Shown one piece after another: positions 1,400-27,675 of a DNA stretch of 33,116 bases. Origin of the DNA: a virus; IMG/VR virus record IMGVR_UViG_3300023240_000064, positions 1 through 33,116 of that record; one strand, given 5' to 3'. The position numbers and the translations under genes were made by a program. Each line of letters starts with the position of its first letter. Within the stretch, counting starts at the first letter, position 1. The notes under the pieces are model-generated. The model was not told the DNA's origin. It saw only the letters and a program-made list of their open reading frames with translations, and did no database searches.

Positions 1400-1416
1400 A
1401 CGCTATAATTTATATA

Positions 1417-2271
1417 TTAAACAGCTACATCTTCATAAGAGAATATAACTTGTCCTCCTAATGCTCCTTGTAGTGATACAGGACTTCCTGTTAGTTCTGA
1501 AGTCGATAGGTTTATGAACGCTTGTGTTAGTTCAGCGTTAGGGTAATGTTTTACAAAGTAGTATGTGTATGTTCTTGTCATTGCTGTAGATCAATCCATA
1601 AACGGGATAGGACAAGATACGAATTTATATAATCCGTAAGGTATAGAAGTCTTCTCATAATTGTATCAAGTAATCTGACCTTCCATAACATCATAGTCGT
1701 ATGCTATTTCAATATCTCCGAATGTTTGTGCTGTGATAGGGATTATATAAGTTAATCCACCTTCTTGGTAAATAGAGTAATCTGTGTCTAATACCAATGT
1801 ACTAGGTCATGCTGTTTCTGTAACCACGATAGTTCATGTATCTACATTGTTAGGGTTAGCTAACAAAAGAGGTACTCACAGATCCCAAGACGCAACAGTT
1901 TCTCCTGTTATATTTACAGTAGAAGCTACTACATTACTAAGTATAATACCAAACATATCAGCAAAAGCTGTTAGGTTACCCGTATCCACCCAATCAAATG
2001 TAACAGTAGCTAATTTCTCAGCACTTCTATCGATCTCTCCTGCTCAACAGTTATCTACGATAGTTACTGTTTCATTTTCAAGAGTATGAGTCGCTACCCA
2101 ATTCTTGATAAATCATACAGATGTAAATGTTAGTCAATCCAATACATTCCTGATCGCTAATTGATTAGAACCTGCAGCGTTTTGTACAGGGATAGTAGGT
2201 GCGGCAGATAATCCTCAAGGGAAATAATAGAAATCTCCTGCTCTAGTTAGTTGGTTTTCTGTAAAAGCCAT
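1417..2271 (-). CDS. Major tail (tube) protein
   Basis: A 284-residue protein placed directly before the chaperone and tape measure genes. It begins MAFTENQLTRAGDFYYFP and is rich in beta-branched and small residues (V, T, I, A) with repeated short strands, as expected for a tail tube beta-sandwich. Gly is encoded by both TGA and GGN. The assignment as the polymerising tube subunit comes from gene order, size and composition; no family-specific signature was identified. Translation starts at ATG 2271 after an AT-rich leader without a clear Shine-Dalgarno sequence. Confidence 0.65.
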
Positions 2272-2298
2272 GTTTATAATATATAATAGATAAAGGGT

Positions 2299-2505
2299 TT
2301 AACAATCTTTGCAATCTTTTTTCTTTCTTCTTCTTTTCTTCTTTGTTGTAGTTGTGTTCTCTTCCTTGTCTTTACAACAATCACAAGGAGCAGTAAACTT
2401 AGCTAATGATGATGTGTAATCTCAATCAGGTATCTCCATAGTAGATCCGTTTTGATAAGTTTTACCTTTGTAGTTTAAATTCTGACATATAACTTTTAGT
2501 TTCAT
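2299..2505 (-). CDS. Small basic Cys-containing protein
   Basis: A 68-residue protein between tail terminator and tail tube genes. The N-terminal half is a short beta-rich segment (KLKVICQNLNYKGKTYQNG). The C-terminal half holds a CDCC cluster, a Thr run, and a strongly basic KKKRRRKKK tract ending DCKDC. The two Cys pairs could bind metal or form disulfides, and the basic tract could contact nucleic acid; these are inferences. No family recognised. Position within the tail operon suggests a minor structural or assembly role. Confidence 0.6.
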
Positions 2506-2572
2506 ACGGTCTATTAAATAATAAATAGCCTACTTTCTATATATACATAGTAATACTATATGCAAGACCTTT

Positions 2573-3010
2573 TTATTGTCTAGCCGAATATAATATATCG
2601 TATGTTTTAACCTTAATTGGTCTGTTCTTATTCGTATATCACATAGGGCTATCTCTCCTAGATGTTATGTTTTGTATTCTTACATCATCTATTTGGTCTA
2701 TACTATCACATATATATGTTATTAGTTCCTCGTCAATGATATTAATTACATCATCTACAACGCTTTCATCTAATCTTGTTGGGTCGTTGGACGGTCAAAC
2801 AACATATATATTTAGTTCACATTTACGGATCGCCTCTCAATAATTATCAAACTCAGTATTATTGCTATTTGTGCAATCAAAATACATATACGCTGTATCA
2901 GGTACTCAATCCTCGTTGGGTTTATACGAGAAAATAGTAGCTACATTCGTCACAGGAACAAGCGTAGACATATATGTATATATATTCTTGGGTGTTATTT
3001 GTTTAATCAT
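2573..3010 (-). CDS. Putative tail terminator / tail completion protein
   Basis: A 145-residue protein encoded immediately after the HK97 gp10-like gene and overlapping its end by 16 nt. Siphoviruses usually place the tail terminator (lambda gpU-like) here. It starts MIKQITPKNIYTYMSTLVPV and has alternating strand/helix composition. Identification rests on synteny and length; I see no diagnostic motif. Confidence 0.5.
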
Positions 3011-3393
3011 CTATTCAAAGAATTAACAATAAGGTCTATAGTCTGTTGCTTAGTATCTTCCACAGTACGGTTCATAACCCTAGCACCTACACCACTATAT
3101 ATAACAGTAGAGCTATTTCTAGGTGGTCACTTATGTCGATTAACAGGTGTCTTTCTAAATCAGAACTCTACTCCAAACGCATGCTCGCTATCATTTATAT
3201 TTGCTCACTTAACGCTGTTTCAAGATATAGTAGCCTGCTTAGTCTTATGTGACCTTATGTAATCGCCAGTATCTGTAGGACTTATCACTTTCATTGTTTC
3301 GTTTCTTAGTTTCAATGCCTTATCTATTCAAGACTTAACATTTCTAAGATAGAAGTTAGATATAGATGTATTGGATAATAATATTTTAACCAT
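2995..3393 (-). CDS. HK97 gp10-like head-tail/tail completion protein
   Basis: A 132-residue protein. The segments VISPTDTGDYIRSHK, then GVEFGF and NRHKGPPRN, follow the pattern of HK97 gp10-family proteins (an 'aP.DTG.Lr.Si' block, then an internal 'vEfGt' block). These complete the neck or tail end. It overlaps the end of the upstream head-closure gene by 8 nt and the downstream gene by 16 nt, indicating translational coupling. Several Gly are TGA, including the one in VEFGF. Confidence 0.6.
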
Positions 3394-3742
3394 TCCATAC
3401 CTTTATTGTTAAAGCTATGTTATCTATGTCTCAATGTAAGTTGGGATATTGGATAGTATCAAGGATAATGTAGCTTCCCATTGGAGAGCCGTTGCGTTCA
3501 AAGAGCTTAAGATAATCTCAGGGTATTATGTCCACATACTGTCATTTTACATTCGCTGTGTAACTCCTTGCGTCTTCTTCTAATGCTCATATTCATTCTT
3601 TGAAGTTGCTTTGCTTTACTCTCCAAAAAGCACAAGGTATTTCTGTATAGATTACAGATTGTGTAGCTTTGGTTCCTCAATCAACTATTGATTGTGATAC
3701 TCTATTTATCGTACAAGTCTTATCGTAGAAATAATCCATCAT
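3386..3742 (-). CDS. Putative head closure / head-tail adaptor protein
   Basis: A 118-residue beta-rich protein beginning MMDYFYDKTCTINRV, located between the gp6-like connector and the gp10-like protein. This is the slot of SPP1 gp16-type head-tail adaptors, which close the portal channel. The opening 'YDKTCTI.R' and the middle 'VDIIPGDYLKL' resemble that family's strand pattern, but I rely mainly on gene order. Two tandem ATGs are available (3742 and 3739); the first is used. Confidence 0.55.
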
Positions 3743-3751
3743 TATATGATA

Positions 3752-4345
3752 CTACACAGGTGGTAAAATAGACAATACATTGAACAGTCAAGTTGTTTCC
3801 ATAAGTCATTGTAACGAAGTTATATCATTTGCCATTCAATCTCTATCAGCAAATGTAAATGACCTATCTCACAGTTTGTAACTCTTGACATCAAAGCCAT
3901 TCTCTTTTGCGTATAATCATTCTACCATAAGAGTCTGTAAGAATCATAAGAACTCATACTCAGAACTTCAACTAACATACCCACAAATAACCTCTATAGG
4001 AAACTTTGGGAAGCTATTAGGGTTAGTGTTGTAGTCTCAAAAATCTTTGATATACAATACACTATTGTATGGTGGAAGTATTTGGTAGTCTGTATCTAAT
4101 ACACCTGTGTATGCTATATTGTTTATATTTGTGATAGCTGTGATATTACGAGCCAAAATTCTTATAAAATAGCCGTCATAGAAATCACAAAAAGAGATAT
4201 AAAAAACTCTAGCACCTTGTGTCAAATCTCATAAATAAACATCTAAGATAGCTTTAGTCTGTGCAAGATACATATCTATTCTTGTGTCGCTATTGTTATC
4301 CGTTATGCCTAAGAATATTTTAACATCAGCTAGAGTTGTGTACAT
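3752..4345 (-). CDS. Head-tail connector (gp6-like)
   Basis: A 197-residue protein. The N-terminal MYTTLADVKIFLGITDNNSD, followed by helical DTRIDMYLAQTKAILDVYLG, is typical of phage head-tail connectors of the HK97 gp6/SPP1 gp15 type, which dock a dodecameric ring on the portal. It ends at TAG 3752, 10 nt before the adaptor gene. TGA encodes Gly at several sites, including a probable loop in VEGLYAKENG. Confidence 0.65.
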
Positions 4346-4371
4346 CTCTTCTATGTGTTATATATAAATAA

Positions 4372-4890
4372 CTATTTTTTATCTTTCTGCTCTTCCTTTA
4401 TTTTCTTTTGTAATCGTTCTATATCGTTCTTCTTATTGTTTGGCACATCATCGCCTGTAATTTCTTTATACTCTATCTGCACTTTCTCTAAATCGCTAAG
4501 TTCTACTTCAGCTTCTTCTTCCTCTTTTGATTCTCATTTTTCAGCAAGTGCGTTCTTTAGCTTTATGATAGTTTCTTTATTTGTATTTATAATATCCTCT
4601 AAAGCACTATTCTTTTCGCTAAGAGTGTTTATATTTCAAGCTAATATCTTATTCTCTTCTTGAACTACGGATAATTGGTTTCTTAAAGATTCTTTATCTT
4701 TATTTACTCATTCTATCTTATCACTATCACTCTCTACTTTCATAAAGATATGTCAGTAATTAGACAATAATCATTTACCTACCAATTCATTAACTTCAAT
4801 ACTCTTTCAAGGTCATACTTGGACATTGCGACCCAGTACTTCAACTCATATATGCTGTTCTTGTGTACGGTTCTTTAATATCATTCTCAT
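4372..4890 (-). CDS. Coiled-coil head-region protein of unknown function
   Basis: A 172-residue protein directly downstream of the major capsid gene. Residues 1-50 form a small beta domain (VEVLGRNVQVGPGKSIEVNE). Residues 55-125 are a heptad-rich coiled coil, followed by an acidic EEEEAEVELSD stretch and a Lys-rich tail. No family recognised. A capsid-accessory or connector role is possible from position only. Confidence 0.65.
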
Positions 4891-4900
4891 ATATTTAAGA

Positions 4901-4940
4901 TTAAAAAAAGGAGGTAAGGTAGGCGTAACCCACCTACCCC
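4901..4940 (-). terminator. Possible terminator after the major capsid gene
   Basis: On the minus strand a 6-bp inverted repeat GGTAGG/CCTACC (plus 4918-4923 and 4933-4938, 9-nt loop) is followed after 8 nt by seven T. It lies 10-50 nt beyond the capsid stop. The stem is short and the T-tract displaced, so it may be a partial terminator that raises capsid mRNA relative to downstream genes. Confidence 0.4.
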
Positions 4941-4950
4941 CTTATGGTAA

Positions 4951-6159
4951 CTATCTTTGTACTACTGCTGTAGCAACAGACGGTCCAAATCCTGCTTCTC
5001 TTGAAGCAACATTACAACCTGCTCGCATTGATACATCAAATATGATTTGTTGTGAATCTTCGTGCATTACTATTTCCATATCTCTACCAAACACAATCTG
5101 TGGTGCAGCTTTGTGGATAAGAGATAATTGATTGAAGTCATTAGCAGCTCCAACTCCTTGCTCTACCTTACCACTAACACCAACAAATGATGGGTTATGT
5201 TTAGCTGTGTAGAATCTGATTCCTTCAGGAGCCATTACTTGTCCTCCTATTGTATTAGTTGGGTCGTTGAATTTCTCCATAGTAGAGTATTCAGCAAGTC
5301 CTCTAATCTTAGTAGCAGTCTTACCATTACCGATCCAAAGAAGATTGTTATAGTCATCAAGATAGTCAGACAATCTATCCATAGTAGATAGAAGCGTTCC
5401 TCTTGTGAATGCAACATTACCTCCAACGATTCCGTCAACATCTTCGATACCGTTGTATCTAATACCTTGATCACCACCTAAGTAGTAAGCGTCAGCAGGG
5501 ATAGTTCCAGTAGTTGGAATATCGTAGAAGTTTACATTAGCTGTAGCTTCAACATCTTTAGTCAATCTATCATCAGCGTTGATAATATATGCTTCAAGTG
5601 TTCTTTGTGCAGCCAAAAGGATTCTGTTCTGTACGAAACTATAGAAGTTTTGTCCTCCCATAATAGCATCGTGCATTTCCTTTTTAGTTATACCTACCTT
5701 AGTTCTGAAAGATTTAATCTTAACGGCAACATTACCAGTAGCTACTGCGTTATCAGTAGTAACATCAACAAGAGTTTGTGAACCTGTAGGTTCAGTAGCT
5801 GTATTCATTAGTCCAGCTTCTCCGTAGATAGCTACATTAACAGTATCTCCTTGTTTCTGTCCATGATTAGACGGAAGCAATGGAAGAAGTCCTGGCATCT
5901 GTGAAATCATAGAATACATTTCATCAGTTCGTACTTGTCCAACAACTGCTTCAGCACCATATCCTACATTACCTGTAGACATAGTTTCGTCTGGTCAAGA
6001 GTTTGTCTTTACATTAACAAGACCACCGTTAGCTTCTCTGTTAGCTTTTGATTTTTCTACTGCGTTCTTGAAAGACTCTATTGCTTCAACCGAATCAGTA
6101 TTCATTAACTTAGCAGCCTTTTCAATAGCATTTAACATTGATTGATTTACTTTACTCAT
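4951..6159 (-). CDS. Major capsid protein (HK97 fold, inferred)
   Basis: A 402-residue protein following the protease-scaffold gene. The first ~60 residues are a helical charged segment, probably a cleaved delta/scaffold-like region. The body has E-loop and P-domain-like alternation (KIKSFRTKVGITKKEMHD, NRILLAAQRTLEAYIINAD) and an A-domain-like end with HEDSQQIIFDVSMRAG. A striking point is codon use: of 40 Gly only one (residue 54, SGP) is TGA, the others are GGA/GGT/GGC/GGG, unlike most other genes here. Using Met 5982 as the start would remove the only TGA but also the N-terminal region; I prefer ATG 6159. Confidence 0.85.
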
Positions 6160-6184
6160 AATAATTTAATTTTAATATAAAAGT

Positions 6185-7483
6185 TTATTCTGCTCTTTTG
6201 ATTCTATTCTCAAGAATCGTTTTCTTTTTATCACCGTTAGCGTTAGCCTCAGCGTCAAAAGAAAGTCATAGAGATATTACATAATCGTTAGCCATCTTGA
6301 TAAGTTTGTCCTTATCCTCCATAGCGTTAGACATGTTTACTATTGTTTCCTCTGCTTTTTTCAGCAAAGACTTATGCTCTTCTAACTCGTTTGTTAGTTG
6401 AGTAACCATATCATTTTCAGATATGTTATTATCTTTTACCTCTTCCCCCTTGGCAATTTCAGCCTTGTTTTCAGAAGTATCTTCGGGAGTCTGGTCTTCT
6501 TCTTCAGTTGTTTCTTCCTTAGTTTCTTCTTCTGCTTCTTCTTCAGTAACTTCTTCAGTAACTTCTTCCTCTACTTCCTCTACTTTATCTTCATCATTAG
6601 TTTCAACAGATTCTACTTTGTCTTCCACTTTCTCATCTGTCTTTTCTTCAGTAATTTTCTCTTCAGTTTCTTTTTCTTCTACTTTGTCTTCTACTTTGTC
6701 TTCTTCATTAACTTTAACATCTTCTAACTTTTTGTCTTCAGCATTTTTTTTCATCTCTTCTAATTTATTAATTAAAGGTGCGTGTCTGTTTAACGCATAT
6801 TTACCTATCGCATTTGGTAATGCAATAGCTTTTTCGTTAGAACCAATAGTAACCAAACTATTCTCGATAGCTTGTGCCTTAGTAACTATATATGTATATA
6901 GATCACTTCCTCACATAAAAGCAGACCATACATTCTCCCATCAAAACTTCTCCATAGCGTCTTCTATAGAATATACTTTACCTGTTTTGTTGTCTTCGAT
7001 TCCGTCTTCTTCAGTAATATGTCCAGTACTTATAGCACTAATATATCCATTCTCTACTTGGTATCTTGTCTTGTCGTCTAATGTGTTCAGATCGACAAAG
7101 AACAGTATATTCAAACCATCATTATTAATATCAAACTTGATAGCCTTACCTATACCTCCTGTTGAAGCGTTATGTTGCAACAAGATTATAGGGTTGTTCA
7201 TGTAGTTTGTGAAATCCCAACCGTTTGGGTCTATCTTATAGCCGTTCCTATTCTTACCACCTTTCTTGTATGCTTGTGAAGCCAATCACTTAAATATCAT
7301 TATGTTCTCTCCTGTTGGTACATCTATCTTAGTCTCTATAGCGTTCTTTGTGAAATCATCTAACGCTTCTTCCATATTCTCTTTACTGATTGAGTTAGCA
7401 ACCATATTAAAGAAAAATCCATTGTCATTAACAAAGTCCTTTAGCTCTTTTTTATCTCAAAAGTCCTCTAATTTTTTATCCAT
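6185..7483 (-). CDS. Prohead protease fused to acidic scaffold-like domain
   Basis: A 432-residue protein with two parts. Residues 1-210 match the HK97-type (S78) prohead protease pattern: IFKGLASQ near residue 63, catalytic-type His in ILLQHN (H104) and Ser in ISAISTGH (S149 or S152). Residues 225-430 are an extremely acidic E/D/K-rich region (about 235-345) followed by a heptad-rich coiled coil (about 350-400), typical of scaffolding proteins. Both parts are one frame once the TGA codons are read as Gly. It precedes the capsid gene by 25 nt. The protease would mature the prohead and digest its own scaffold. Confidence 0.8.
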
Positions 7484-7549
7484 AAGCAGGTATAAATATA
7501 TAAAGCCTATCTTCTTATTAACTAATCCAAACGATATTACAATACTTTT

Positions 7550-8845
7550 TTATTCTACCGTCTCCTCCTCTTTCTTTGTGCTGTTAGATACTCAACCTAT
7601 AATAGAAAACATATTCATATCCTCTTCAGTAGCTTCTACCATATCAAATTTCTGTCTATATTCGTTAGGAGTTATCAATCATTTCTCCCTCTCTTTTATT
7701 CATAGTTCCTTATCTTTATATATATTCTTAAATTCTGCGTTCTTTAGCTTTATATAATATTGAAATGTTGGGTCAATAAATTTCTTGTATACTGCTGTTA
7801 TGAAATCAGAGAACATATAACCGTATGCATCTATCTGTTCGTTACCTTGTGTGATTGTCGTTACCTCAACCTCTCCGTAAGAGCCACTATCTTTTTGTAA
7901 ACCGATCAATCTAGAGTCTAACATAAATACTGTAGACAAACTAGCGTCGTTATCTTTCCTTAAATTGATAAGGTCTAAATCCACATTAGATAAATCCAGG
8001 GTCTTTATATCGTTAGCTACATAAGAAGAGTGATATTTACCTGTATTGTCAGGTCAGCTATACTTCTTATCCCATTCAGTATCAAACTGTTTCTTTTTCT
8101 CAGGTCAATCTTGTCACTTGAACGCTTCAGGATTCAACATAATAAACAAATTTGGTTGTGCATTATTCTTAAAGAAATACATCTGGGTTCTACTCGCTTC
8201 ATCATTAGTTATAGCGTCCATAACTACAGAACGATACAAACTCTCTCCTCTATATACACAATCTATATCTCTATATGCTATGTAATCTACAATCTGTGTA
8301 GGAAATATAGTCTCCATTCAGTATTTAGATTTATATTCATACGATACAGGGTTGTCATACTTATCTGTCTTAATTGACATACCCCTACCATCTAACAACT
8401 TTATCCAATCATCTGTGCTAGCCAATAATCAAAATCAGTTTATCTTTGTAGGTACAGCAAATACCTGCCCATTAGCAAACGCTTGATCAAAGAACTGTTT
8501 GATAAACTCATTCATCTCGTGTTTCCTTCACACATAAGAATATAATGTTTCTAATACTTTCCTCTGCTCTGATTCAGAAATCTCGTTCTCTTCATAATCT
8601 ATAACAGAAAATCATTTAGCTCCAACCATCTGCGAAATCTTTTGTGTGTAAGAGAACGCCATCTTGTTTGTCTTATGTACTCTATACATTGTATGTCTAT
8701 CTATATTGATTCTACCACAAGAGGTTATATCCTGTCATACATATTGGTATCCTCTATTCGATACATTAGTGATAAAATTATCTTCAGTCTTTACTTGTTT
8801 ATTATCTCATATAGTGAATGTCTTCCCTAAGAAATTGAATTGCAT
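7550..8845 (-). CDS. Portal protein
   Basis: A 431-residue protein between the large terminase and protease genes, the usual portal position. It forms the 12-mer ring through which DNA is packaged. Portal-like blocks include a clip/wing region (FIKQFFDQAFANGQVFAVP), VDYIAYRDIDCVYRGESL ('G.S.l' helix), and NLFIMLNPEAFKG, followed by helical SVTQG-like text (VTTITQGNEQIDAYG) and a C-terminal acidic tail. ATG 8845 is chosen because upstream sequence in frame has no better start. A gap of 72 nt separates it from the terminase stop. Confidence 0.8.
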
Positions 8846-8917
8846 AACTCATAACAAGGAAATAAAAGCTCATATTGTAAATAACTTTTGTAGATTGATA
8901 TGCAAGAGATTTTATGT

Positions 8918-10378
8918 TTATGCTACAATTACCCATTCGTTCTCTTCTTCCCAGAAACTTAGCATAAGTGAATCCACCATATCATCAAATTCTCAATTAG
9001 GGAAAGCCAACAACTCCTCTATCAAGTCTTCACATCATTTGGTGTTGAAGAATATATTGCCACTCTCAAACTCTCATTGATACTCCAACAACCTCGTAAC
9101 CTTATCTCTATTAGTTTTTATTGGATTGACTGCCATGTGTTCTTCTTTTAGATAATCAGCCAACACTTCTTGGAACGCTACGGTCTCAACATTCAACGAT
9201 ATGTTATCTGTATGAGAGCCTCGTTTATTGTACAACTCTTTTGCTACCTTAATCTGATTCCTCATTCTTTTAGCTTGTCATTCAAGCTTAATAGATTCTA
9301 ACACATACTTCTTTCATTCGTCCCATCAAGTAACTGTCATACCAACTCTATCGCTCTCTGTCTTCTTCGATATTGCTGTATCTATACCTATCCTTACCTT
9401 ATCGAAATAGAAGCCGTCTACATTTACCTTATTTATTAAATGTAATGGAACAATAACCATTCATCTCACATATGGTTGCAATAGATAGTTCTGTCCAAAC
9501 GATATACTACCCAACCTCTCACGCTCTTTCTCTAACGAAACATACATAAAATGAGGGTTCTTAATTCATTGGTTCTTCTCCTCTGCTTCAGCGTTAGTCT
9601 CAACAAACCTATCCCATACTATCTTTCAATCTTGGTCGTATATTGGTTGTCTAATAATAAGCCAATCTTCATCGTTCTCAAAATGTTGTCTAAGTCTTGG
9701 GATAAGTCAGTCTTCATAAATCGTGTTACCAAGAACTATAAGCTGTGTGCTAGGATTTATACCACCAAAGATTTCCTGTGTAAGGAAATCTCGATTCTTA
9801 TCTATAAGCTTTTTGCTTCTTGCTGATTTACTGGTATCTATATCATCAAACACAATGAGATCTGGTCTATACTTTCAGTCAGTAGCAGTATAGTTCTTTC
9901 ATCTAGGAGACATACCCAAAGACATACCAGACAACAAACATTCGTTCTCTGTTATATACTTACTCTTACCTTTTATCGTCTTACTCTTAAACTTAGTAGG
10001 ATTCTCATCATAATATAGATGTCAGTAATCTCTAATAAATCTATCATTCTCGATAAAACTATTCGCAACATACATAAGATTATCTGTACTACCCTCTCCT
10101 GTATCAGAATACCACATTATATGTCTACGCTTCCTATTCGCTACGACATTATTTAGATACATCTGAGCTAATGTAGTTTTTGCAGAATATCTAAACGCCT
10201 CAAAAAAAACATTCTTTCATTCTTCGAGTGCTTTGTAAACAGGCAGAATAAACTCAGGCGTAGGGAATGTATAATAATTGGAAAAATAGTATCTACAATA
10301 ACGGTATAGGTTCTTATTCATATAAGCCCTACGCAACTTCCTGTTATTCAGTATCTCTTTCTTTATATCTCCAATCAT
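8918..10378 (-). CDS. terL: Terminase large subunit
   Basis: A 486-residue DNA-packaging motor. The N-terminal ATPase has a Walker A-like loop (FRYSAKTTL, residues 62-70) and a Walker B with catalytic acid (LIVFDDID, 174-181). The C-terminal RNase H-like nuclease has RIGIDTAI (about 335-342) and DDMVDSLML (about 468-476), which supply the metal-binding acids. Length and motif order match TerL proteins. It follows the putative small subunit by 68 nt. Gly positions use mixed TGA and GGN codons. Confidence 0.93.
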
Positions 10379-11787: not shown

Positions 11788-12639
11788 TTAATGATTAAAA
11801 TAATCCATCTTCTTTGCTTTATGTAATGCGCTAAGGTATGTCATATACTTATACAGCTCTATAATATTAGAGTTATTCTTCTCTGAGTAGTGTTTAACTC
11901 AAAAATCAATCCCATATTTATCCCTATATTCTTTGGCTCAATATCCAGTTAAATATGGAGATTGGAATCTATATAATCTATTAAACTTTCATCAAGCTAA
12001 CCATCAAGTGCTATCTATAGAATAGAATGGATATTTAGCCATTAGCTTTGGATTTGTCATTCCTCGTCAATGGCATTTAGTTTTTAAGTTATGTTTATTA
12101 ATATACCAAAAACAATAATCCAAGAATTGTTTAATTTTCTTTGGTTTGTTTGCATAAGGAACCATTCATCATAACCCTATATAATCATAATTATGAACAT
12201 AATGCTCAAAGAATTTTTTATCACTTCATAAATGGTAAGTAGGTAAGGGAGATAATCCTCTTCTTTCTAACTCTTCTTGGTTCTTTAATGTAGAGTCTCA
12301 ATCTCAGATAACATCAAGATTTGCATATAACTCAAGATATTGCTTATTCTCTTTAATGAATTTCTCGTAATCATCTATAGAGATAGAGGTTCATTGCGTC
12401 GCCGCAGAGAAAGCTCAACTATCAAGAAAGAACTTTTTATTGAATAACTTATAGTCGTGAGCTAATCATTTATTTTTAACGGCAAGATAGGTTTCAAGAA
12501 AATTACATTGAGCTAATGTAGCACTAGGTAATAGTGGATATGCCTTCTTTCCTGTACTATATCAAGCTAAGTATAATTTCATATTTGCTTTATTAAATCA
12601 TAAATTACTTCTTTTTTCTCAAGCCAAATATAATTTCAT
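11788..12639 (-). CDS. dpdA: DpdA-like DNA-guanine transglycosylase
   Basis: A 283-residue member of the phage DpdA/TGT superfamily, which exchanges guanine for a 7-deazaguanine base (here presumably preQ0 or a relative) in DNA. Key blocks: FLDSGAFSA with candidate Asp73, NLDVIG, YIGLGGMVPY (155-162), CHGRGMTNP, and SIDSTGWL with candidate Asp209, the two Asp expected of TGT-type enzymes. The Gly in DSGAF, both Gly of LGGM, and the Gly of CHGRG are TGA, strong evidence for UGA = Gly. MKLYLAG occurs twice (residues 1 and 20); the second Met may be the ancestral start. The start overlaps the queC stop as TAATG. Confidence 0.88.
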
Positions 12640-13349
12640 TATTTATTTTTGTAAACATTTTCTTGTGATAAAGCATATCCTTTTGCTTCTTCCCATAATT
12701 CATCTGAATACAATGGGTCTTTAACTCATTGTCCTATAAACGCTAGATTTCTTTCTACAGAACTACCTGTTTTATAATTAGGTACTTCTCCTCAATCGTA
12801 ATCTGTCCAAGTTAATGCGTAATCTACTCATAGCTCTATTCATTCTTTTAAGATAGTATTCTTATCTCCTCATAAGAATGGAGCATAAATAGCTACTTTT
12901 TCATAATTAGCTAATCAAGCTATTCTATTTAATGCTTCTATAAATACTGGTCTACAATCAGGATATACATCATGATCTCAATCGTGTACTCATAAAGCTA
13001 CTTCTTCAGCTCAAATATTAACAGCATATCAGATAGCTATACTCGCCATAATCATATTACGATTAGGAACAACAGTCTTCTTCATATTGTCGTCAGCATA
13101 ATGTCATTCAGGCATAGCTATATCACTCGTCAATGCTGAGTTTGATATAAGTTCGGTTATGCTTGTAAGGTCTACAATCCTATGAGGTACTCATAATTTC
13201 TCACAAGATTTAGCTGCATACGACAATTCTTTTTTGTGTTTTTGTCAGTAATCAAAAGATACAGCAAAAACTTCTTTTCATTCGGCTTTCAGTTTGTATA
13301 GCAATGTTGTGCTATCCATTCATCAAGATAATACGATTACGCTTTTCAT
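12639..13349 (-). CDS. queC: QueC-like 7-cyano-7-deazaguanine synthase lacking zinc cysteines
   Basis: A 236-residue enzyme of the QueC family, which converts 7-carboxy-7-deazaguanine to preQ0 with ATP and ammonia. The PP-loop is intact (VLSGGMDST, residues 6-14; both Gly are TGA), as are VVPNRNMIM (93-101), ALGVHDGDH and YPDCRPVFI. In the C-terminal zinc region, usually TW.CY.GG...CG.C..C.ER, this protein has D183, N191, T194 and S197 at the four Cys positions, while TW, Y, GGE, VER and AF are kept. Zinc binding is therefore probably lost. It may stop at the amide intermediate or fold without zinc; activity cannot be judged from sequence. Confidence 0.9.
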
Positions 13350-13395
13350 AATAATGTATAAAATATAAAAGTAGGTTTATAGTCACTATATCGAC

Positions 13396-13827
13396 TTAAT
13401 TCTCATAATAGAAGTCTATCCATTCATCTCATTTCTCTCTACAATATATATCAGGAGTAAATGATGATTGCTTAAACTTAAATAATATTCAATAATCTAT
13501 TTCTCTATCAATAGGCATTTTACTTTTTACCCAAGATAAAGTCTCTCAAGTATCAGTCAATTCATCAAAAACAAGAATATTGTCTGTATCTATATCAGGC
13601 ATATAATGTATTTGTAATGAGCTTTGATTTTTCCCTATATAACTATTTACACATATAGTTCTAATATCTTTTATTCAAAGCATATCAGCAATATAATATC
13701 AAGGGATTAATGCTCATTTAGTTATAAGTATAAGAGTTTTATATTCTTTTCACATCTTTTTTACTTTTTCACAAAATTCTTTACATAAATATTTCAGTTC
13801 TTTAGCTGATACAAATAATTTTTTCAT
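13396..13827 (-). CDS. Purine phosphoribosyltransferase (Gpt/HPRT type)
   Basis: A 143-residue type I phosphoribosyltransferase, which joins a purine base to PRPP. The PRPP-binding motif is seen as ILVFDELTDTGETL (residues 84-97), and LILITKGALIPGYYIADMLG (32-51) is the usual upstream strand-loop-helix. Length fits small xanthine-guanine PRTases. It sits inside the deazaguanine cluster between queE and queC. In the toyocamycin pathway a PRTase of this family (ToyH) acts on preQ0 (family knowledge), so a deazapurine substrate is possible; purine salvage is the alternative. Confidence 0.82.
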
Positions 13828-13909
13828 TATATTTTAGATAAATAAGATAAGCGAGATCAGAGTTTTTGTTTTTTATGTAATATATGCATATTATAAATAG
13901 ATTATAAAA

Positions 13910-15649
13910 TTAAACACCTCTTTTAGCTCAATCCCACATTATATTTTGAGCTCTAATCGTTACATTAACTCCTTTAGATAGAATATAATCAATCGTATTT
14001 TCAAACACTTTAGTGTTCTCTTCTTTCGTCACTCATTCAGGCATAAACCAAATCATATCCAATGGGATAATGTCTTTATATGTCTCTAATACATAATCAA
14101 CATCTTCTTTTGTTAAAAATACAAACTTAAATATAGCTTTATTTGTTGCGACTAATTGTTTCAAAACAACAGGATTAAATGCTATCTTTGTTTCATTATC
14201 AGAACTAGGTATTTTAGGACTACAATTATAATAACATCATTTCAATCTTTTATCTAATACAGGAATAGTTCAATTTGTTTCTATTTGTATATTCGTAAAT
14301 TCATCTCAATATTCTTCTATAAATTGTCATATAGTTCTTTGTTGGAGTAATGGCTCTCATCAAGTAAAGGTTAGACTTTTACAGATATTAGTGAGTCCTT
14401 TTTCTCTTTGAGATTCTATTATACGAGTATATAATTCTAATCAATCTATATTTTCGCTTTCATAATATTCCTTTTCATCTTGTTTTCGTGTGTACCAAGC
14501 ATCGCAATTTTCTACTAAGTAGTTCTTAGCAAAGAAATTTCAAGTAGTTGTCTGGATATCATAGACATCTTTCTCCTTAATATTTTCTATTACCTCAGTA
14601 ACTAAAACATTACTAAGTACATTCCTTTTATCTTTAGGTATTTTTCTAGTAATTTGTATAGGTATAATATCAAAGAAAGTGTTAATATTATTCTTACCTG
14701 TTATATAAAACTCTGATGCTCTTGTTACTGGTTTTATGTCACTTGTAACTATTCAAAACTCAAAAAGCATTCATTTTAATCTTTTTAGTATATTCTGGTC
14801 TTTCTGTGAAAAAGATATCTGATTTCTTCACGTATGTCATTCCGCATCATAAAATCAAGCTATATACCCTATAGCACTTTCTCTTGTCTCTATAGGTTCT
14901 AAGACTTGATTTATAACTGATTTTTTTCAGGTAGTTACTCTATAAATCGTTTTTCCGACAATAGTTTTTCTACTACTCTCTGTTATACTTACATTGCCTC
15001 ATAAAAGATTGATACAGTACTGAATAGCTTCGGCAAACTCTAAGTCACATACTTGAAAATACAAATGACTATTACTTATATTACCATCTCATACATAAGC
15101 TCATTTAAGATAACCACGAGCAAATTGTTCATCCAACTTAATTTTAGAATGATATCAATGGAAATATTTTATATGCTCTCCCTTTAAATCCTTAGCCATA
15201 CATCTCTGCGTTCGCTTTTTACCTGTACGTCTGTTAGTATAGAACATATGATCTGGAGTACATTCAATCTTGTCGCCATTCTCAGTCACTATAGTAACTG
15301 TTTTACTTTTACGAACAAAACCTTTTTCTACTCAGCTCTCTGTTATTTTTTGGTCTTTATGAGAAAGAACCTTATCTCCTATTTGGAGTTCCTCAATGTT
15401 TTTCCAACCTCCATCTGATAACATTACGGGAGTACTTCCCACAAAGCATCGACTACAAGCAAGATTGCAATTATTGAGTCTAATAAAAGTAGTTGGCTTT
15501 CATATAAAAGTTCATTCTCATTGTATTGTATGAAAAACTCAATCTCAACTTAACTTAAATTTTCAAGGAACAAACATCTTATTTTTCTTCTCCTCTTCAG
15601 TTGGGATATATCCTCACTTTGTATCACTTGCTTTTAATATCACAGCCAT
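13910..15649 (-). CDS. queE: QueE-like radical SAM enzyme interrupted by an intein
   Basis: The 579-residue precursor contains a ~265-residue QueE extein and a 314-residue intein. QueE (7-carboxy-7-deazaguanine synthase) contracts carboxytetrahydropterin. Extein features: TIQGEGTFIG (41-50), radical SAM cysteines C61 and C65, the third Cys C382 directly after the intein, TFTGGEP (427-433; the GG is TGA TGA), IQIETNG and CSPKIP. After splicing the cluster motif reads CNLACSRCDAW, i.e. CX3CX2C. The start overlaps xapX by 16 nt. Splicing is required for an FeS cluster, so enzyme activity depends on the intein being active. Confidence 0.92.
14507..15448 (-). mobile_element. Intein with LAGLIDADG homing endonuclease inside queE
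   Basis: Residues 68-381 of the queE product. Splicing block A begins CFVGSTPVMLSDGGW (Cys1), block B has ECTPDHMFYT with the TxxH motif, and the C-terminal blocks read VYDIQTTTGNFFAKN then LVEN before Cys+1. The final Asn is kept but the penultimate residue is Glu instead of the usual His. Two dodecapeptide motifs mark the endonuclease: YLKGAYVGDG (180-189) and YIAGFYDAEG (262-271), with acidic residues present. Several motif Gly are TGA, so the element is already adapted to the recoded alphabet. It sits exactly at the third radical-SAM Cys codon. Confidence 0.92.
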
Positions 15650-15792
15650 TTTTTAATAAACATATATCAAATAAAAACTCATAATATTCAAACCACTCAA
15701 TTTATATGTCAAGGAGCTGGTAATGGAAGTTTTAATAAGGCAAAAATCAATCATAGAACAGTTCAAGCAACTAAAGACAATAAAGTTTGCAT
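15634..15792 (-). CDS. XapX-like small membrane protein
   Basis: A 52-residue, two-segment hydrophobic protein: LLSLVAGTVLGLIFALL, then LPLPAPGHINGVVGILGVFIGYMF. The pattern 'G.l.GLi.all...P.PAP....vvGilGv..G' is that of the XapX/DUF1427 family, short inner-membrane proteins of unknown function. Six Gly are TGA. The start overlaps the folE stop (TAATG) and the end overlaps queE, so it is translated as part of the deazaguanine operon. A transport-linked role is speculation. Confidence 0.8.
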
Positions 15793-16355
15793 TATATTTT
15801 AAGTAAAGCTAAAAACTCTTGTCTTGATTGACTACTATCATCTCTAAAAACTCAAGAGAGATTACTTGTTACTGTATCACTACAAGGGTCTTTTACTCAT
15901 CTCAGCTTCATACAGAAATGTTCTGCTTTAATAATAACAGCTACATCTTCAGTCTCTAATACATCTACTAAGAAATTATGTATCTGCATAGTTAATCTTT
16001 CTTGTACTTGTGGTCTACGAGCAAAATAATCGATTACTCTTGCAAATTTAGATAATCATACAACCTTATCTTTTGGGATATATGCTATATATGCTTTTCA
16101 AATAAAAGGTTGAAAATGATGTTCACATAAACTTTGTACTTGAATATCTCTAACTAACACCATTTGGTCATAACTTCAGTCATTTGGAAATACTGTTATT
16201 CTAGGTGGTTCAGTAAATAATCAATTACAAGTTTCATCAATAAACATTTTAGCTACTCTTTTTGGAGTATCTTTTAATGAAGCATCAGTTAAATCTAAAT
16301 TCAATTCTTTCATAAATTGTGAAAATATATTCTCTAATTTGCTTTTATCTCACAT
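15792..16355 (-). CDS. folE: GTP cyclohydrolase I
   Basis: A 187-residue type I GTP cyclohydrolase, which opens GTP to dihydroneopterin triphosphate, the first step toward preQ0. Zinc ligands are visible in [10 protein letters not shown] (C77, H80) and in [15 protein letters not shown] (C148). [25 protein letters not shown] (99-122, in parts) and the C-terminal SNLSGVF are family hallmarks. Length is normal. It overlaps the queD stop by 11 nt. In this context it supplies deazaguanine synthesis rather than folate. Confidence 0.95.
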
Positions 16356-16794
16356 TATCGTTAGGAGAATATAAAACATAACTTGTCGGAGTCTCTCGTA
16401 ATTTAATACCTTGCAACCTTAGATTAGATTTATATACATCATCAAACATAGGATTTAATATATCAAACAGATGTTTTGCTATATTCTCTGCTGTGGGAAT
16501 AAAAGAAACCTCAATAGCTTTCATTCACATATTTTCTGCTAATTCTCATATAGCATCTCAAACATAATACATATATCAATGGTCTCGGTTTTCATCTACA
16601 TAACCATTAGCTATATTTTTTATATCAGAAAAATCTATAACCATTCACTCTTCTGATTTACCTTTTTCTTCTATAATATCTCATTTCATAATAATTTCTG
16701 CTTTGTATCTATGTCAATGGAGATTTCTACACTTGCTTTTATGGTTTGGTACTCTGTGTCACATATCTCGTTGAATTTCTTTTGATATTAACAT
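16345..16794 (-). CDS. queD: 6-carboxytetrahydropterin synthase QueD
   Basis: A 149-residue QueD/PTPS-fold protein that makes 6-carboxytetrahydropterin. CRNLHGHRY contains catalytic-type C22 and zinc ligands H26 and H28, with H13 (DMGHRV) as the third ligand. GMVIDFSDIK (50-59), PTAENIA (101-107) and the terminal ETPTS motif are typical. It is the first gene of the deazaguanine cluster and is preceded by an AT-rich leader with a TATAAT box. Confidence 0.93.
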
Positions 16795-22338: not shown

Positions 22339-22917
22339 TTACTTCTTAATCTTAATATCTTTTCATAACATCTTACATACTTCTTCTAGTGTATATTCTT
22401 CTACTTCCTTCGATACATCTATACCAGTGATAAACTTAAATCATTCAGCATTGAAGTGAGGGATGTTTAGATATTCTTGTTTTTGTGATGTCGTCAATCA
22501 ATCTCGCATCTTCTTGAACGCTGTTTGGTATCTTGTAGAAGGGTCTTCTCCACTATCAAACTCTAGTCTGTGATATAACTTAGGTATCTTATGATATTCT
22601 TCCTCAGTTAATTGTACATTGAATACTCTGTATTTCGGTTGTTGATATCAATCTACCTCACTATTTTCAGCCCAACAAAAGTAGTTTAGCTCTGTCATCC
22701 TTAGGTTTTTACAGTAGTGACAGTTGTAACAGTAGTTACAGTTGTAACAGTTGTAACAGCAGTTACTGTTGTAACAGTAGTTACAGTTGTAACAGTTGTA
22801 ACAGTTGTGACAGTTTTTACAGTTGTTACAGTTGTTACAGTTGTGACAGTTTTTACAGTTGTGACAGTTTTTACAGTTGTTACAGTTGTAACAGTTGTTA
22901 CAGTTTTTATTCGACAT
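22339..22917 (-). CDS. Asn-Cys repeat protein
   Basis: A 192-residue protein. Residues 5-70 are a run of NCxNC units (N, K, H or Y between), about 24 Cys in 66 residues. A conserved-looking C-terminal domain follows: YRVFNVQLTEEEYHKI, IPHFNAEGFKFITGID. The repeat could be a left-handed solenoid or a metal/disulfide-rich rod; this is inference. Similar NC-repeat proteins with an 'IPHF...ITGI' tail occur in other phages (from memory, unchecked). The plus-strand shadow is a Val-Thr repeat. Confidence 0.75.
22700..22908 (-). repeat. 9-bp-period DNA repeat encoding the NC units
   Basis: On the plus strand, units related to TTACAGTTG / TGACAGTTG / TAACAGTTG recur with a 9-bp period. They encode three residues each (NCx) on the minus strand. 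The near-identity of units suggests recent expansion by slippage and probable copy-number variation between isolates. Confidence 0.8.
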
Positions 22918-23963: not shown

Positions 23964-24617
23964 TTATGTGATTTGTAGATTATGTAAATCTACCCATAAC
24001 TCAAACTTATCTAATATATGTTTTTCTTCCTTTATTATTCATTTAACAATTCTTGCTAATATACTAGCTATTCATAAACAATTATAACTTACTCACTTCA
24101 ATGTACATTTTTCTTCATCTGCTTCATCATCAGAGTATCGTTTTTGTAAGTATAAGTCCAGTTCGTACTGTGGTATAAAGTTGTATATGACAAAGAACTC
24201 TGCCTTCATGCGACAATCTATAAGTCTAGATACATTGCTACTCTCACAGGCTTCTGCTATCTCCTTTCTTGTTTTCATATTATCTACTCACATTATCACT
24301 ATATCCATTCACTCTACATACTCTGCTTTGAATAATCATTCTATAGTTTTTATCTCAACTCAAGTAAATTGCTTAACATTCTCTTTTAATGATTCCAACT
24401 TTCATTTTCATAACTGGTCTTCCCTATAGAATTGGGTAGCTATATTATGATTCTCTAATTCATCAAAATCTATTACTGTTATATCTATTATACCCATCTG
24501 TGCTAAAGCATATGTAGTCGTGCTTCATATTCATCAAGCTCATACTATCAGTACACTCTTTTGTCAATCTATTTCAGGGTCGTATATATCTAACTGGTTA
24601 CGGTGTCTTTGTGTCAT
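23964..24617 (-). CDS. ThiF/E1-like ubiquitin-activating enzyme
   Basis: A 217-residue adenylating enzyme of the ThiF/MoeB/E1 superfamily, which activates the C-terminus of a Ubl with ATP. The Rossmann nucleotide loop is VLIVGAGGIGST (22-33), followed by DITVIDFDELENHN (45-58), QFYREDQLGKGK (62-73; Arg65, Lys71/73) and MGVDNMKTR (109-117; Asp111). Candidate catalytic or zinc Cys are C171 and C180. It is shorter than MoeB. 14 of 15 Gly are TGA, including all four of GAGGIG. It is the last gene of the Ubl operon, 20 nt after the JAB gene. Confidence 0.92.
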
Positions 24618-24637
24618 CTCAACAATAAATAATAAAA

Positions 24638-25585
24638 TTAATCAAATAGGTTGTTATATTTATCCCAATATTTCTTTTTGCTTTTTGTAAATCATCATTC
24701 TTTATTATGATTTGTATTTCAATAATATCCTCAAACTATATATTCTGATTTCTCAATCTCATTATCTTTTAATTCTTTGATTTTTGTGTCATAAATATTT
24801 CATCAAAAAGCAGATATAATCTCGTATCTATCTCTATCATACTTTTTAGTAAGCGATTCTCTTTTTTTAGATAATAAAGAAACCTTACTATCTTCTACTA
24901 TATCCTCCACCTCTGTAGAATCTAATCACATAAGTAAATCTCATAGATAATCATTAACATCAGAGAAATCTATACTTCAAATGTCTAATGACTGCTCTTC
25001 TTGTAGATGTACTTCTTTCAACGATTCTAAAGCAGTTTCTAAGGACGAATAATCTTCAACCCTATCTCTCATAATCTCATCAGGACTATATTGTTCTACC
25101 TCTATTCGAACATTAAACGCTAATCTTGTTGGTATAAACACATCTAATCAACATTTATAATTCATCTTACCTCATTGATAAGAAGTAACAACAGACCACC
25201 AATGCTTTGTATTTCAATCATTAAATCAATTTCTTGCTTCCCAATCTGTTTCACTCCAAAATACCGCCATATTGTGATGGCTGTGTAATCGGCAATTCCA
25301 TTCGTGCATATTTAGTGGGTCTACTTCCATAATCTTTTCAGCTATAGAATCTAACCCCTCTTTTGTCATCTCTGTATTGCTTGCAGAATTCTCCTGTTCA
25401 CAAAACAATATATCGCTTAGTAGATAATATCAATCTTTTTTCTCTACTTTTGCAATACCACTCCATTCTTTGTTTGGGTGGTCTTCGTGTAATCTAGCTA
25501 TTAATTCATTCATATATCAACTAACCTTCATAGTTACTGATACATCTATTTCTTTTATTGCTCATGTGTTTTTTTTCTTTCACAT
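24638..25585 (-). CDS. JAMM/JAB-domain deubiquitinase-like peptidase
   Basis: A 315-residue protein with an N-terminal JAB (MPN+) metalloprotease domain. The full zinc motif is present: Glu40 in NKEWSGI, then H101-S-H103, seven residues, S111-E-T-D114 (LHSHHNMAVFWSETDWE). Such enzymes remove or process Ubl tags, or trim a Ubl precursor. The remainder (residues ~165-315) is acidic and helical, with no recognised domain; a short Gly/Tyr-rich patch lies near the end. It stands between E2 and E1 genes, 30 nt after the E2 stop. Confidence 0.92.
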
Positions 25586-25615
25586 ACTTGTATAATTTAT
25601 TAAATTAAAGGATAT

Positions 25616-27136
25616 TTATGCTGTAAGTAATTGCTGTGCAGTTACTTTATGATCTATAGCTTTTATAAAACTATCTGTAATGGCGTTTGTATCGTTTTTA
25701 GGAGCTACATACTGCTTATATAATACATCATTATATATCATATACTTATCCCATATTGATTTTCATTTTGCTCTTTCTTGTACTTTACCCATAATCCACA
25801 TATAGTCATCTGCTTTTTTTGATGGTACGCTTCTTGCTACTCTTTCAGGGGTAGAATTTCAAAGTAATTGGTACTCGTTTCTTAATTTTTCTATATCTAA
25901 TTCTATATAGGTAAGATTATTTAATTCGATTCAAACGATACTAACTCAATCAACAATAATTTCTGTTTCTTTTATTTTAGCACTAAGCTCATCTTGTATA
26001 GATTGATCTAATTTTGGTTTATGATTAGACACGAAAGAATCTCTACTCTGGTAGACACTATCTGCATAATAACTTTGTAAATATTCTAATATTGCATATC
26101 AATATGCTATATAGTCTTGTGCTTTATATAACTTAGATAATATTGTTGCGTATTCTCAAAGACAACAATCTCAAGAAATATTTATATGAGGGTGGTGGTA
26201 TACTCCACCTACATCAACTACAGTATTCTTAATATTCAAGGAATAATTAATTAGATCAATATATATTTTATATCTTCATAATGGGTATTTAGAATCTCAT
26301 TCACTATATATATTTCGTGTATATATAGTTATAGATTTGTTAGGTATGAAAATAACTTTATCAACTAAATTATGTTTTTCTAAAATACTTGATAGGTTTC
26401 TGATATTCTCATATTGTTTATCTACCTCTGTCTCCAAATCTTCAGACAAAAAATCTCATAATTTTTTAGCGTTCTCCATAAACTCTCTTAATGATAATCT
26501 ATATAGATTATTGATTTCTTCTTCTTTGTATTTTCTATTATCTTCTATCCTTAATCTAATGGTATTCTTTATCTTCATATCTATAACCTCTTCAAGACTA
26601 ACTACATCAGACCCAGTCAATAATGATTGTGGAACTCAAACAATAGTTCATTCAATATTTTTAACATAAACCGTCTTTCATCAGCTAAACATTACAGCAT
26701 ATTGACCTTCATATCATATACATTCTACATATTCAGACGCAAATTTACTCATATCAATAGCAACATTCCCAATTAATCTACATATTTCCTCTCCACTCTT
26801 AAATTTCAATATCTCTCATTTATCAAACAATGGGTCTTCGTGTACATATATAGTTTTTATTTTTTGTAATAATGGTTCTCGTAAATATAGTTCTGTATCT
26901 GTCCATATATAATCTATATCTATTCATCTTATAGTTCATAAGAAACTTCAACGTATTCTATTTCAATCTTTGGTGTAAAGAATAATATTGTTTCTAATAA
27001 TGAATCATGATATAGCAACAGCTAAACTTTCATTCCTAGCATTATCAAAATCTTCTATTCATAAATGATTTTTAATAAATCATTCTATAGATAATAAGGT
27101 ATCTTTGAATTTTGGGGATATGTGAATATGTGCCAT
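25616..27136 (-). CDS. E2-like conjugating protein with extended N- and C-terminal regions
   Basis: A 506-residue protein. Its E2-like core is seen at 303-330: strand VVDVGGVYHHPHINI, then SGDCCLGEYA, with H314-H317 and candidate catalytic C324 or C325. This HPH...G.xCLG arrangement is that of prokaryotic E2/UBC-fold proteins (Prok-E2 groups, recalled as PRTRC-B-like), where Cys forms the thioester with the Ubl. About 300 residues precede it (two beta-rich domains and a coiled coil near 200-255) and a charged helical region follows (395-506). Being longer than stand-alone E2s, it may bind substrates itself. Start ATG lies 21 nt after a terminator. Confidence 0.8.
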
Positions 27137-27157
27137 ACTTGCAAAATATTAACTTGT

Positions 27158-27182
27158 AAAAAAGAGGTGTGGTTACACCTCT
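27158..27182 (-). terminator. Strong intrinsic terminator between Ubl and E2 genes
   Basis: On the minus strand AGAGGTGT, loop AACC, ACACCTCT form a perfect 8-bp stem, followed directly by TTTTTT. The stem begins within the Ubl stop codon. The E2 ATG comes 21 nt later with no promoter visible, so some readthrough must supply E2, JAB and E1. This would give much more Ubl than enzyme. Confidence 0.85.
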
Positions 27183-27675
27183 AGTAATCTTCTTCTATTC
27201 TTTCACTAATACCTTTATAAAATATCTTATAAGATTCTCAATTTAATGCGACATCTCATAAACTAACTTTCTCTCATTCTGAATCTATAATTCAAGCAAA
27301 ACGACTCATAGATACATTCTTTTTATGTAATTCACATTTAACTAAGTCTTGCAATAGAGAACCTTCAGAAAAAGCTATCTTTCAATCATTTACATTAATT
27401 TCTTTATTGGCTTCCTGCAGATCAAAAGAAGCAAAATACACATCTTTTTCTTTTACTTCTTCCGTACCTCACTTAATTTTTTCTGTAGAAATTAATAACA
27501 TATCTCAATCATCTACTTGTGTGTCAAGAGATATAATAGAGCCATTTCTCTTTACATCTGTGATAGAATCTACATTAAACCCACCTTCTACGAGTGCATC
27601 TAACGCAGTACCTCAATTTTCCAATACTACAGATACTGGAGAACTACCTAATTTTACAATGTTTACAGTTGTCAT
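27181..27675 (-). CDS. Tandem beta-grasp ubiquitin-like protein
   Basis: A 164-residue protein made of two probable beta-grasp domains. Domain 1 (1-70) has the MoaD/ThiS/Prok_Ub pattern: VNIVKLGSSPVSVVLENG, helix TALDALVEGG, VKRNGSIISLDTQVDDGDML, then ISTEKIKGG ending in Gly69-Gly70 (TGA GGT). Domain 2 (~78-160) repeats strand-helix-strand features with SLLQDLVK and VSLGDVALNG. The GG at the domain boundary suggests the JAB enzyme or another peptidase could cut there. It is the first clear gene behind promoter P1 and ends in a terminator. Confidence 0.8.

Follow-up and report, generated by a model that had tools for sequence, protein, structure and literature searches.

A probable ubiquitin-like conjugation operon that recurs in phages, and its divergent member in a genome reading UGA as glycine

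To our knowledge, conjugation of ubiquitin-like (Ubl) proteins in bacteria has been discussed mainly as a bacterial and often a defensive activity. Bil, for instance, is a bacterial Ubl system that acts in anti-phage defence. The subject of this study is a four-gene operon encoding a Ubl, an E2-like protein, a JAB/JAMM peptidase and an E1/ThiF-like enzyme in a phage genome, IMG/VR virus record IMGVR_UViG_3300023240_000064, whose 33,116 bases we call the window, together with the relatives of this operon in other phages. Among described systems, Cap2 is an E1–E2 fusion encoded in the operon of the cyclic-oligonucleotide-based anti-phage signalling system, CBASS (portion of PMC12355090 drawn on here). 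Type 6d, as given in the portion of PMC1779556 drawn on here, has Ubl, JAB, E1 and E2 as separate genes in bacteria. Its E2 has no His before the Cys and a conserved His after it, its JAB has an N-terminal domain, its operon includes an alpha-helical protein, and the table in that portion lists bacteria, not phages. In type 6e of the same source, the JAB is usually fused to the E1, one to three Ubl repeats are present and the E2-like domain, where present, has no Cys. Lambda and T1 encode a Ubl (TAPI) and a JAB (TAPK) among their tail genes, with no E1 or E2 described in that portion.

The window operon resembles each of these in part. It shares with CBASS Cap2/Cap3 and with Bil the bacterial Ubl-type conjugation and JAB deconjugation chemistry predicted for it, and with Lambda/T1 tail assembly the combination of a phage Ubl and a JAB. 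Unlike Cap2, its E1 and E2 are separate and carried by a phage; Cap2 and the Iyer 2006 types 6a–6c, in which E1 and E2 are fused, were rejected on the separate open reading frames (ORFs) of 506 (E2) and 217 (E1) amino acids (aa). No CD-NTase appeared among the ten window proteins run against PADLOC, which was not a full search for that enzyme. Like type 6d, the operon encodes each of these four kinds of protein as a separate gene product, has a Ubl with a C-terminal glycine and is sporadically distributed, but in the window E2 both H315 and H317 precede C325, which rules that type out. Type 6e is ruled out by the separate JAB and E1 and by the presence of the E2 Cys. Membership of the PRTRC cassette, which the first-pass annotation had likened to this operon in composition, did not survive comparison of the E1 and JAB with NCBIfam, where the E1 scored 45.8 bits against a ThiF cut-off of 144.75, and the JAB 12.0 against 101.8 for PRTRC A. 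By these tested features, the operon is set apart from the PRTRC cassette, from Cap2-type E1–E2 fusions and from Iyer types 6a–6e.

The window is a tailed phage genome, with a portal and a terminase that exceed their Pfam cut-offs, and it uses genetic code 25, in which UGA is read as glycine. Minus-strand coding density (ORFs of at least 60 aa) is 0.875 under code 25 and 0.205 under code 11, and TGA accounts for 354 of the 615 Gly codons genome-wide. When the E1 was aligned with 82 relatives, columns at window TGA codons held 38% Gly, compared with 4% elsewhere, and 0.1% Trp, which argues for reading UGA as Gly; the JAB, which is less conserved, showed no Gly signal when tested in the same way. 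The Ubl, E2, JAB and E1 genes contain 8, 23, 17 and 14 in-frame TGAs, respectively. Under NCBI table 11 none of the four genes survives: there is no minus-strand ORF of at least 100 aa at 27675..23964, and the sole ORF of that size across the stretch is a plus-strand 110-aa frame starting with TTG. Both the code and the loss of every operon gene in standard-code annotation had been anticipated in the first-pass annotation. So had the operon itself, whose genes lie where it placed them, tightly spaced, with the named motifs (E1 GAGGIG at 26–31, the full JAMM ligands, E2 HPH...Cys and Ubl KIKGG) all present. They are transcribed in the order Ubl-E2-JAB-E1 on the minus strand, 27675..23964, with intergenic gaps of 44, 30 and 20 bases (Table 1). 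Judged from the code only, the host would belong to the Absconditabacteria/Gracilibacteria. In the presumed major capsid protein gene (4951-6159, no Pfam match), TGA makes up 1 of 40 Gly codons, compared with 58% genome-wide and 93% for the E1 gene, which points to avoidance of UGA in what is presumably a highly expressed gene.

Table 1. Genes of the window operon and the predicted domains and sites of their products
Feature	Position	Strand	Length or basis
Ubl gene	27675-27181	minus	164 aa (code 25 ORF)
E2-like gene	27136-25616	minus	506 aa (code 25 ORF)
JAB/JAMM (MPN+) isopeptidase gene	25585-24638	minus	315 aa (code 25 ORF)
E1/ThiF-like activating enzyme gene	24617-23964	minus	217 aa (code 25 ORF)
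Ubl domain 1, residues 1-70, beta-grasp, KIKGG end (66-70)	27466..27675	minus	AlphaFold2, VIA-align
Ubl C-terminal tail/domain, residues 71-164 and stop	27181..27465	minus	Presumed removed after Gly70, before activation
Predicted UBC domain, E2 residues 234-374	26015..26437	minus	AlphaFold2, VIA-align
Putative E2 active site, H315-P-H...C325	26162..26194	minus	Invariant residues in alignment
JAMM motif, H101-x-H103-x7-S111-x2-D114	25244..25285	minus	Invariant vs two crAss phages
JAMM ligand E40 (E40-W-S-G)	25466-25468	minus	Invariant vs two crAss phages
E1 nucleotide-binding GAGGIG, residues 26-31	24525..24542	minus	Four Gly, all written TGA
E1 Cys171, candidate catalytic cysteine	24105..24107	minus	Invariant, as is K174, among 12 diverse phage E1s

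The same quartet recurs well beyond this genome. A tblastn search of the E1 against 50,697 phage records matched 82, all below 60% identity and mainly from crAss-like Bacteroides phages and Flavobacterium phages, and in three of these records the flanking genes proved to be of the same kinds and identically arranged. Alignment searches of IMG/VR gave 60 loci for the E1 and 4 for the JAB, each set including one locus from the virus of the window itself. With profiles, the order Ubl-E2-JAB-E1 was complete in 54 of 65 loci outside that genome. We distinguish three groups. Group A, which includes the crAss-like and Flavobacterium phages, has all four genes in order at 53 of 61 loci (obtained from the 54 of 65 by removing three loci that belong to group B and one duplicated contig; near-identical phages stay in), and an E2 accompanies the E1 at 58/65 group A loci, the others being contig ends or group B loci. 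Group B has all four at 26 of its 28 IMG/VR loci. Group C (L111-L119 and L121-L126) has them at 7 of 15 loci, several being cut by contig ends and four showing no recognised JAB. This last group came from a TGA-tolerant pattern of the window E2 motif, which found 17 stretches (the own virus, one group B contig and 15 new ones), so its E2 match is partly by construction; its E1, JAB and Ubl were not selected. When ten proteins of relatives were compared with PHROGs, six matched families, all of unknown function, and four matched none.

Some relatives are already in hand. In the cultured gut phage phiCrAss001, gp79, gp78, gp77 and gp76 correspond to Ubl, E2, JAB and E1, matching the group A profiles with E values of 2.7e-53, 1e-91, 4.5e-107 and 2.3e-104 (Z=10000); the record labels them hypothetical, hypothetical, metalloprotease domain and ThiF. 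This operon and that of Flavobacterium phage Fpv1, whose records use the labels 'ThiF', 'metalloprotease domain' or hypothetical, have the same four families in the same order as the window. They differ from it in their standard code, in an E2 with HSH...C.G and a longer loop, and in a Ubl ending in KSG rather than KGG; the Fpv1 JAB gene is also split, unlike that of the window. Group C shows the combination found in the window, with HPHIN..G..CLG in the E2 (the search pattern itself), EWSG...HSHHxM in the JAB, and an E1, but it too uses the standard code, and its Ubls have 66–95 aa without a long tail.

The phage setting, which the first-pass annotation had supposed to be new, is therefore shared with many standard-code phages; new in the window is that the genome uses code 25. 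Group A genes were located in standard-code ORFs. In group B, nine loci open further when TGA is read through, with the TGAs near frame ends, and in group C the E2 frames stay open, or nearly so, when read with the standard code. Since the frames of all three groups fit the standard code, no code-25 member other than the window was seen, although the collection searches apparently back-translate Gly as standard-code glycine codons and may miss code-25 loci. A scan of 84,980 species genomes gave four loci, three of them on phage-like contigs in metagenome-assembled genomes (MAGs) of Spirochaetia. The fourth, on a planctomycete (Sedimentisphaerales) MAG contig (L072 5165-7660), has an E2, JAB and E1 of group B type open in the standard code and an unsure Ubl assignment; group B is thus not strictly viral. 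In a different layout, Xanthomonas phage PhiXhv-15 (L104 2751-6630) has an ORF whose product ends in SGG and an E1, together with an 892-aa protein that combines HPH...CLG with a Cys-rich end; there is no JAB among the ORFs read.

The window was placed among these groups using profiles built without its own genome. A candidate near relative, IMGVR_UViG_3300022851_000031 (95% by tblastn), was rejected as independent, as identity between its 18,476 bases and the window end is 99.96%; this contig represents the same virus, and the profiles used exclude it. For the group B and C profiles, the top-scoring window protein is in each case the one from the operon. In a tree of 71 E1 rows, A, B and C are separate, with the window as a long branch with A and C (96/88). 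When group C is left out, the window lies outside A (99/96), as the sister branch of that group (97/88); with group C, its grouping with C has a p-value in the approximately unbiased test (p-AU) of 0.405 and that with B of 0.397, so that neither is rejected, and a grouping with A is unsupported (77/48). With so long a branch and a bootstrap that has not settled, the E1 tree fixes no exact place, and the window appears to be a divergent, long-branched code-25 member near A and C.

The E1 and JAB can be assigned from their sequences. The E1, which matches Pfam ThiF with 86.3 bits over a cut-off of 28.1 (E 2.3e-24), belongs to the E1/ThiF superfamily. It scores 139.9 bits against group A (a profile made from 65 E1 rows of other phages), 123.8 against B and 78.2 against C, and all of 12 diverse phage E1s share its D50, D52, N58, K73, D112 and C171. 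By fixed regular expression, the Cys motif takes the form C[ST].K in 59/65 group A rows and C.AK in 16/27 group B rows. In PADLOC, whose library was not established to hold a Bil model, E1–E2 models fill the best 25 of 34 matches of the E1, and the Ubl, E2 and JAB match nothing. The JAB has the complete set of putative zinc ligands (E40, H101, H103, S111 and D114, with H101-S-H103 spacing) and scores 28.1 bits (E 8.8e-7 at Z=10000) against a group A profile of 64 other phage JAB rows, 26.2 against C and 7.3 against B, where the best shuffle reached 8.6; Pfam Prok-JAB gave no match. Ligands and family-level similarity together place it among the JAMM/MPN+ peptidases. EWSG...JAMM is found in 52/57 group A JABs of at least 250 aa, the five misses being halves of split genes, and JAMM in 27/27 group B proteins tested (under length limits, with two loci left out). 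JAB genes are split at seven loci (L004, L018, L020, L031, L036, L042 and L071), and in six of them the first part runs as far as one of the two His residues of the JAMM HxH (..GLIH / SHNNM..). Rfam recognises group I introns in two of the seven, L031 (4097-4309) and L042 (3501-3760), and none at cut-off in the other five.

The E2 is assigned from its active-site motif and its modelled fold. The motif is HHPHINISGDCCLG, whose second Cys is C325, giving H315-P316-H317...C325-L-G; the distance from HPH to C325 is that of the classical E2 HPN...C. H315, P316, C325 and G327 are invariant across 25 aligned E2 sequences, HP...C.G is kept in 27/27 group B proteins tested (the same limits applying), and H.H...C.G was found in 48/56 group A proteins by fixed regular expression. 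The AlphaFold2 model has a mean predicted local distance difference test score (pLDDT) of 56.8 over 506 residues, with blocks of 81–91 at 241–300 and 321–360 and of 65–77 at 301–320, which contains HPH, and 361–370. VIA-align places residues 234–374 on a complete UBC domain with Z 9.0 to UBE2K and UbcH8 (for UBE2K, 125 residues with a root-mean-square deviation, rmsd, of 3.5), and E2/UEV proteins make up almost all of the 50 rows listed. A UBC fold around residues 300–330, which the first-pass annotation had made its test for this protein, is thus what the model predicts. By sequence, the window E2 matches group B with 37.4 bits, where 800 shuffled window proteins reached 11.8 at best, and group C with 24.9, and does not match the group A profile. 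Pfam, NCBIfam and PHROGs gave nothing useful for it, nor did Pfam and NCBIfam for five relatives' E2s. With an HPx...Cys and a predicted UBC fold, it falls in the E2 class. The window E2 has no counterpart of the Cys-rich C-terminal domain seen in those three E2s of group B whose whole sequences were read (L065 3798-5006, L052 4073-5203 and L068 3420-4781), where a CxxC-rich domain follows the UBC part; by eye this looks like treble-clef/RING-type zinc binding and is possibly a built-in E3.

For the Ubl, an input alignment of 30 phage Ubls yielded a model with block pLDDT of 89–96 for residues 1–60 and 74 for 61–70, and with the order beta-beta-alpha-beta-beta, a beta-grasp over residues 1–66. 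VIA-align matches residues 1–69 to sulfur carriers, SAMP1, TGS, Ras-binding domains and ubiquitin, with a best Z of 8.8. Ubiquitin rows have Z 7.6–8.0, mostly with rmsd of about 2.0–2.4 over 65–69 residues; TtuB also matches (ubiquitin and TtuB together spanning Z 7.6–8.8), as does the bacterial multi-ubiquitin filament 9d5b (Z 7.7). These values are middling alone, and their weight lies in the predominance of ubiquitin-fold domains that match over the full length of the domain; a few rows, such as transcobalamin, are of other kinds. Gly69-Gly70, the internal Gly-Gly of the first reading, falls where ubiquitin ends, residue 69 aligning with its last residue (76) in rows such as 9d1y_D, within a low-confidence stretch (residues 69–83, pLDDT <50) that resembles a flexible end. 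The beta-grasp claimed for this protein stands for the first domain. A second, tandem beta-grasp is not shown by the model: residues 71–160 have block pLDDT of 39–77, confidence over 79–154 is low to moderate, and this part is barely covered in a fold comparison that widely spans only 1–69. In group A, [SAG]G is present in 54/55 Ubls by a loose pattern, and tails of 1–217 aa follow the conserved [SA]G where the pattern located it; a conserved Gly with a variable tail fits processing of a precursor by the JAB. We conclude that this protein is probably a ubiquitin-like modifier, a beta-grasp with a C-terminal Gly that predicted processing would expose.

Four protein families with their motifs and folds, the genetic code and a conserved gene order make it likely that the operon encodes a complete, reversible ubiquitin-like conjugation pathway, and the active-site motifs, largely kept across the groups, support this. 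In such a pathway, the JAB would trim the Ubl precursor after Gly70. The E1 would adenylate the exposed glycine with ATP and then hold the Ubl as a thioester, probably on Cys171; from there it would move to Cys325 of the UBC-fold E2 and on to lysines of target proteins. The JAB could also remove conjugated Ubl. Regarding targets, group A neighbourhoods contain a primase-type gene at 55/65 loci, a PD-(D/E)XK-type nuclease at 50/65 and a uracil-DNA glycosylase (UDG) at 42/65, as named from one representative each and the phiCrAss001 record (Toprim and UDG above the Pfam cut-off, the nuclease DUF3799 below it). Such a neighbourhood suggests early expression and replication or host-takeover targets. 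We tentatively favour early-infection proteins, whether phage replication and recombination proteins or host factors, over virion parts. Taking these together, we give a probability of roughly 65% to the reading that several deep phage lineages (crAss-like phages, Flavobacterium phages, the phages of group B, group C and the code-25 window phage) carry a complete, working Ubl pathway as a regular component of their gene complement and tag replication or host proteins during infection.

Several results weigh against the proposed pathway. Unmatched models often reach Z 7–8 in VIA-align, and the best E2 value lies modestly above that. The whole E2 model gave weak Foldseek results, the best E2 match being Rad6 at rank 2 with E 0.26, and the A8 and A9 profiles, compared with the PDB by sequence, found neither an E2 nor ubiquitin. 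The sequence scores of the window Ubl are weak in all groups, at 6.3 bits for A, 7.5 for B (best shuffle 7.2) and 11.1 for C (best shuffle 6.8). The fixed expressions miss 8/56 group A rows for the E2 motif and, for the E1 Cys, 6/65 group A and 11/27 group B rows. No E3 and no target were identified. Finally, none of the primase, PD-(D/E)XK, UDG, ATPase and single-stranded-DNA-binding (SSB)-like neighbours was detected among the window early genes, and since these genes match no group A or C neighbour families, the link to replication rests on the relatives.

The same genes could instead serve to sabotage host defence, Ubl-based or other, by tagging defence proteins or by using the JAB to strip host-made Ubl from phage components. 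CBASS Cap2, from a bacterial Ubl system, does act in anti-phage defence (portion of PMC12355090 drawn on here). Stripping needs a JAB alone, however, yet the E1, E2 and Ubl are kept with mostly conserved active-site motifs, and the group A operon sits among replication genes at most loci, which together leave counter-defence unlikely. We consider it more improbable still that the Ubl is joined to capsid or tail proteins for assembly or particle protection. Lambda-type phages do employ TAPI and TAPK in tail assembly (portion of PMC1779556 drawn on here), but the window operon is distant from the portal, terminase and presumed head and tail genes within 1-10378, and a term search for gp76–gp79 in the main text of the virion atlas of crAss001 (PMC10172136) found none of them.

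A further alternative is a ThiS/MoaD-like sulfur-carrier system, in which the Ubl would carry sulfur for cofactor, tRNA or DNA modification instead of tagging proteins. The best NCBIfam matches of the E1 are ThiF/MoeB models, far below cut-off, one group B Ubl matches Pfam ThiS, and queuosine-type genes are present in the window. A sulfur carrier needs no E2, yet an E2 stands beside the E1 throughout most of group A and that of the window has a predicted UBC fold; the 19 window proteins searched in Pfam, from among its ORFs, include no sulfurtransferase. We regard this explanation as very unlikely, and conjugation of the Ubl to proteins remains our preferred reading.

Elsewhere in the window, a QueE-like protein with radical SAM and 4Fe-4S domains (13910-15649) harbours an intein with a LAGLIDADG domain. 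Genes for QueC, GTP cyclohydrolase I and QueD/PTPS lie beside it (12639-16794), and the set resembles a preQ0-type pathway, perhaps for DNA modification. A 192-aa protein (22339-22917) has an NC-x-NC (Asn-Cys) repeat as its N-terminal third.

Among the open-access matches listed, we found no description of a phage-encoded E1/E2/JAB/Ubl set; subscription papers and bioRxiv lay outside this scope, so priority is uncertain. In the crAss papers PMC7886860, PMC6235969 and PMC10136315, term searches gave no occurrence of ubiquitin, thiamine or metalloprotease, and in PMC10746230, which deals with hosts that use code 25 and with the phages of these hosts, they gave neither ubiquitin nor ThiF.

The operon in the window thus belongs to a recurrent phage Ubl-conjugation operon, larger in extent than first noted, and a cultured relative makes testing possible. 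If our reading is right, bacteria are host to a virus-owned ubiquitin-like system that has been overlooked behind the labels 'ThiF', 'metalloprotease' and hypothetical, with code 25 further hiding the genes of the window from standard annotation. The usual roles would be reversed, with the virus doing the tagging. Four poorly annotated genes of phiCrAss001 would gain a specific and testable biochemical role, and the separate-gene sets of E1, E2, Ubl and JAB would be useful for studying how such cascades evolve. More broadly, code-25 genomes can hide whole pathways from standard annotation.

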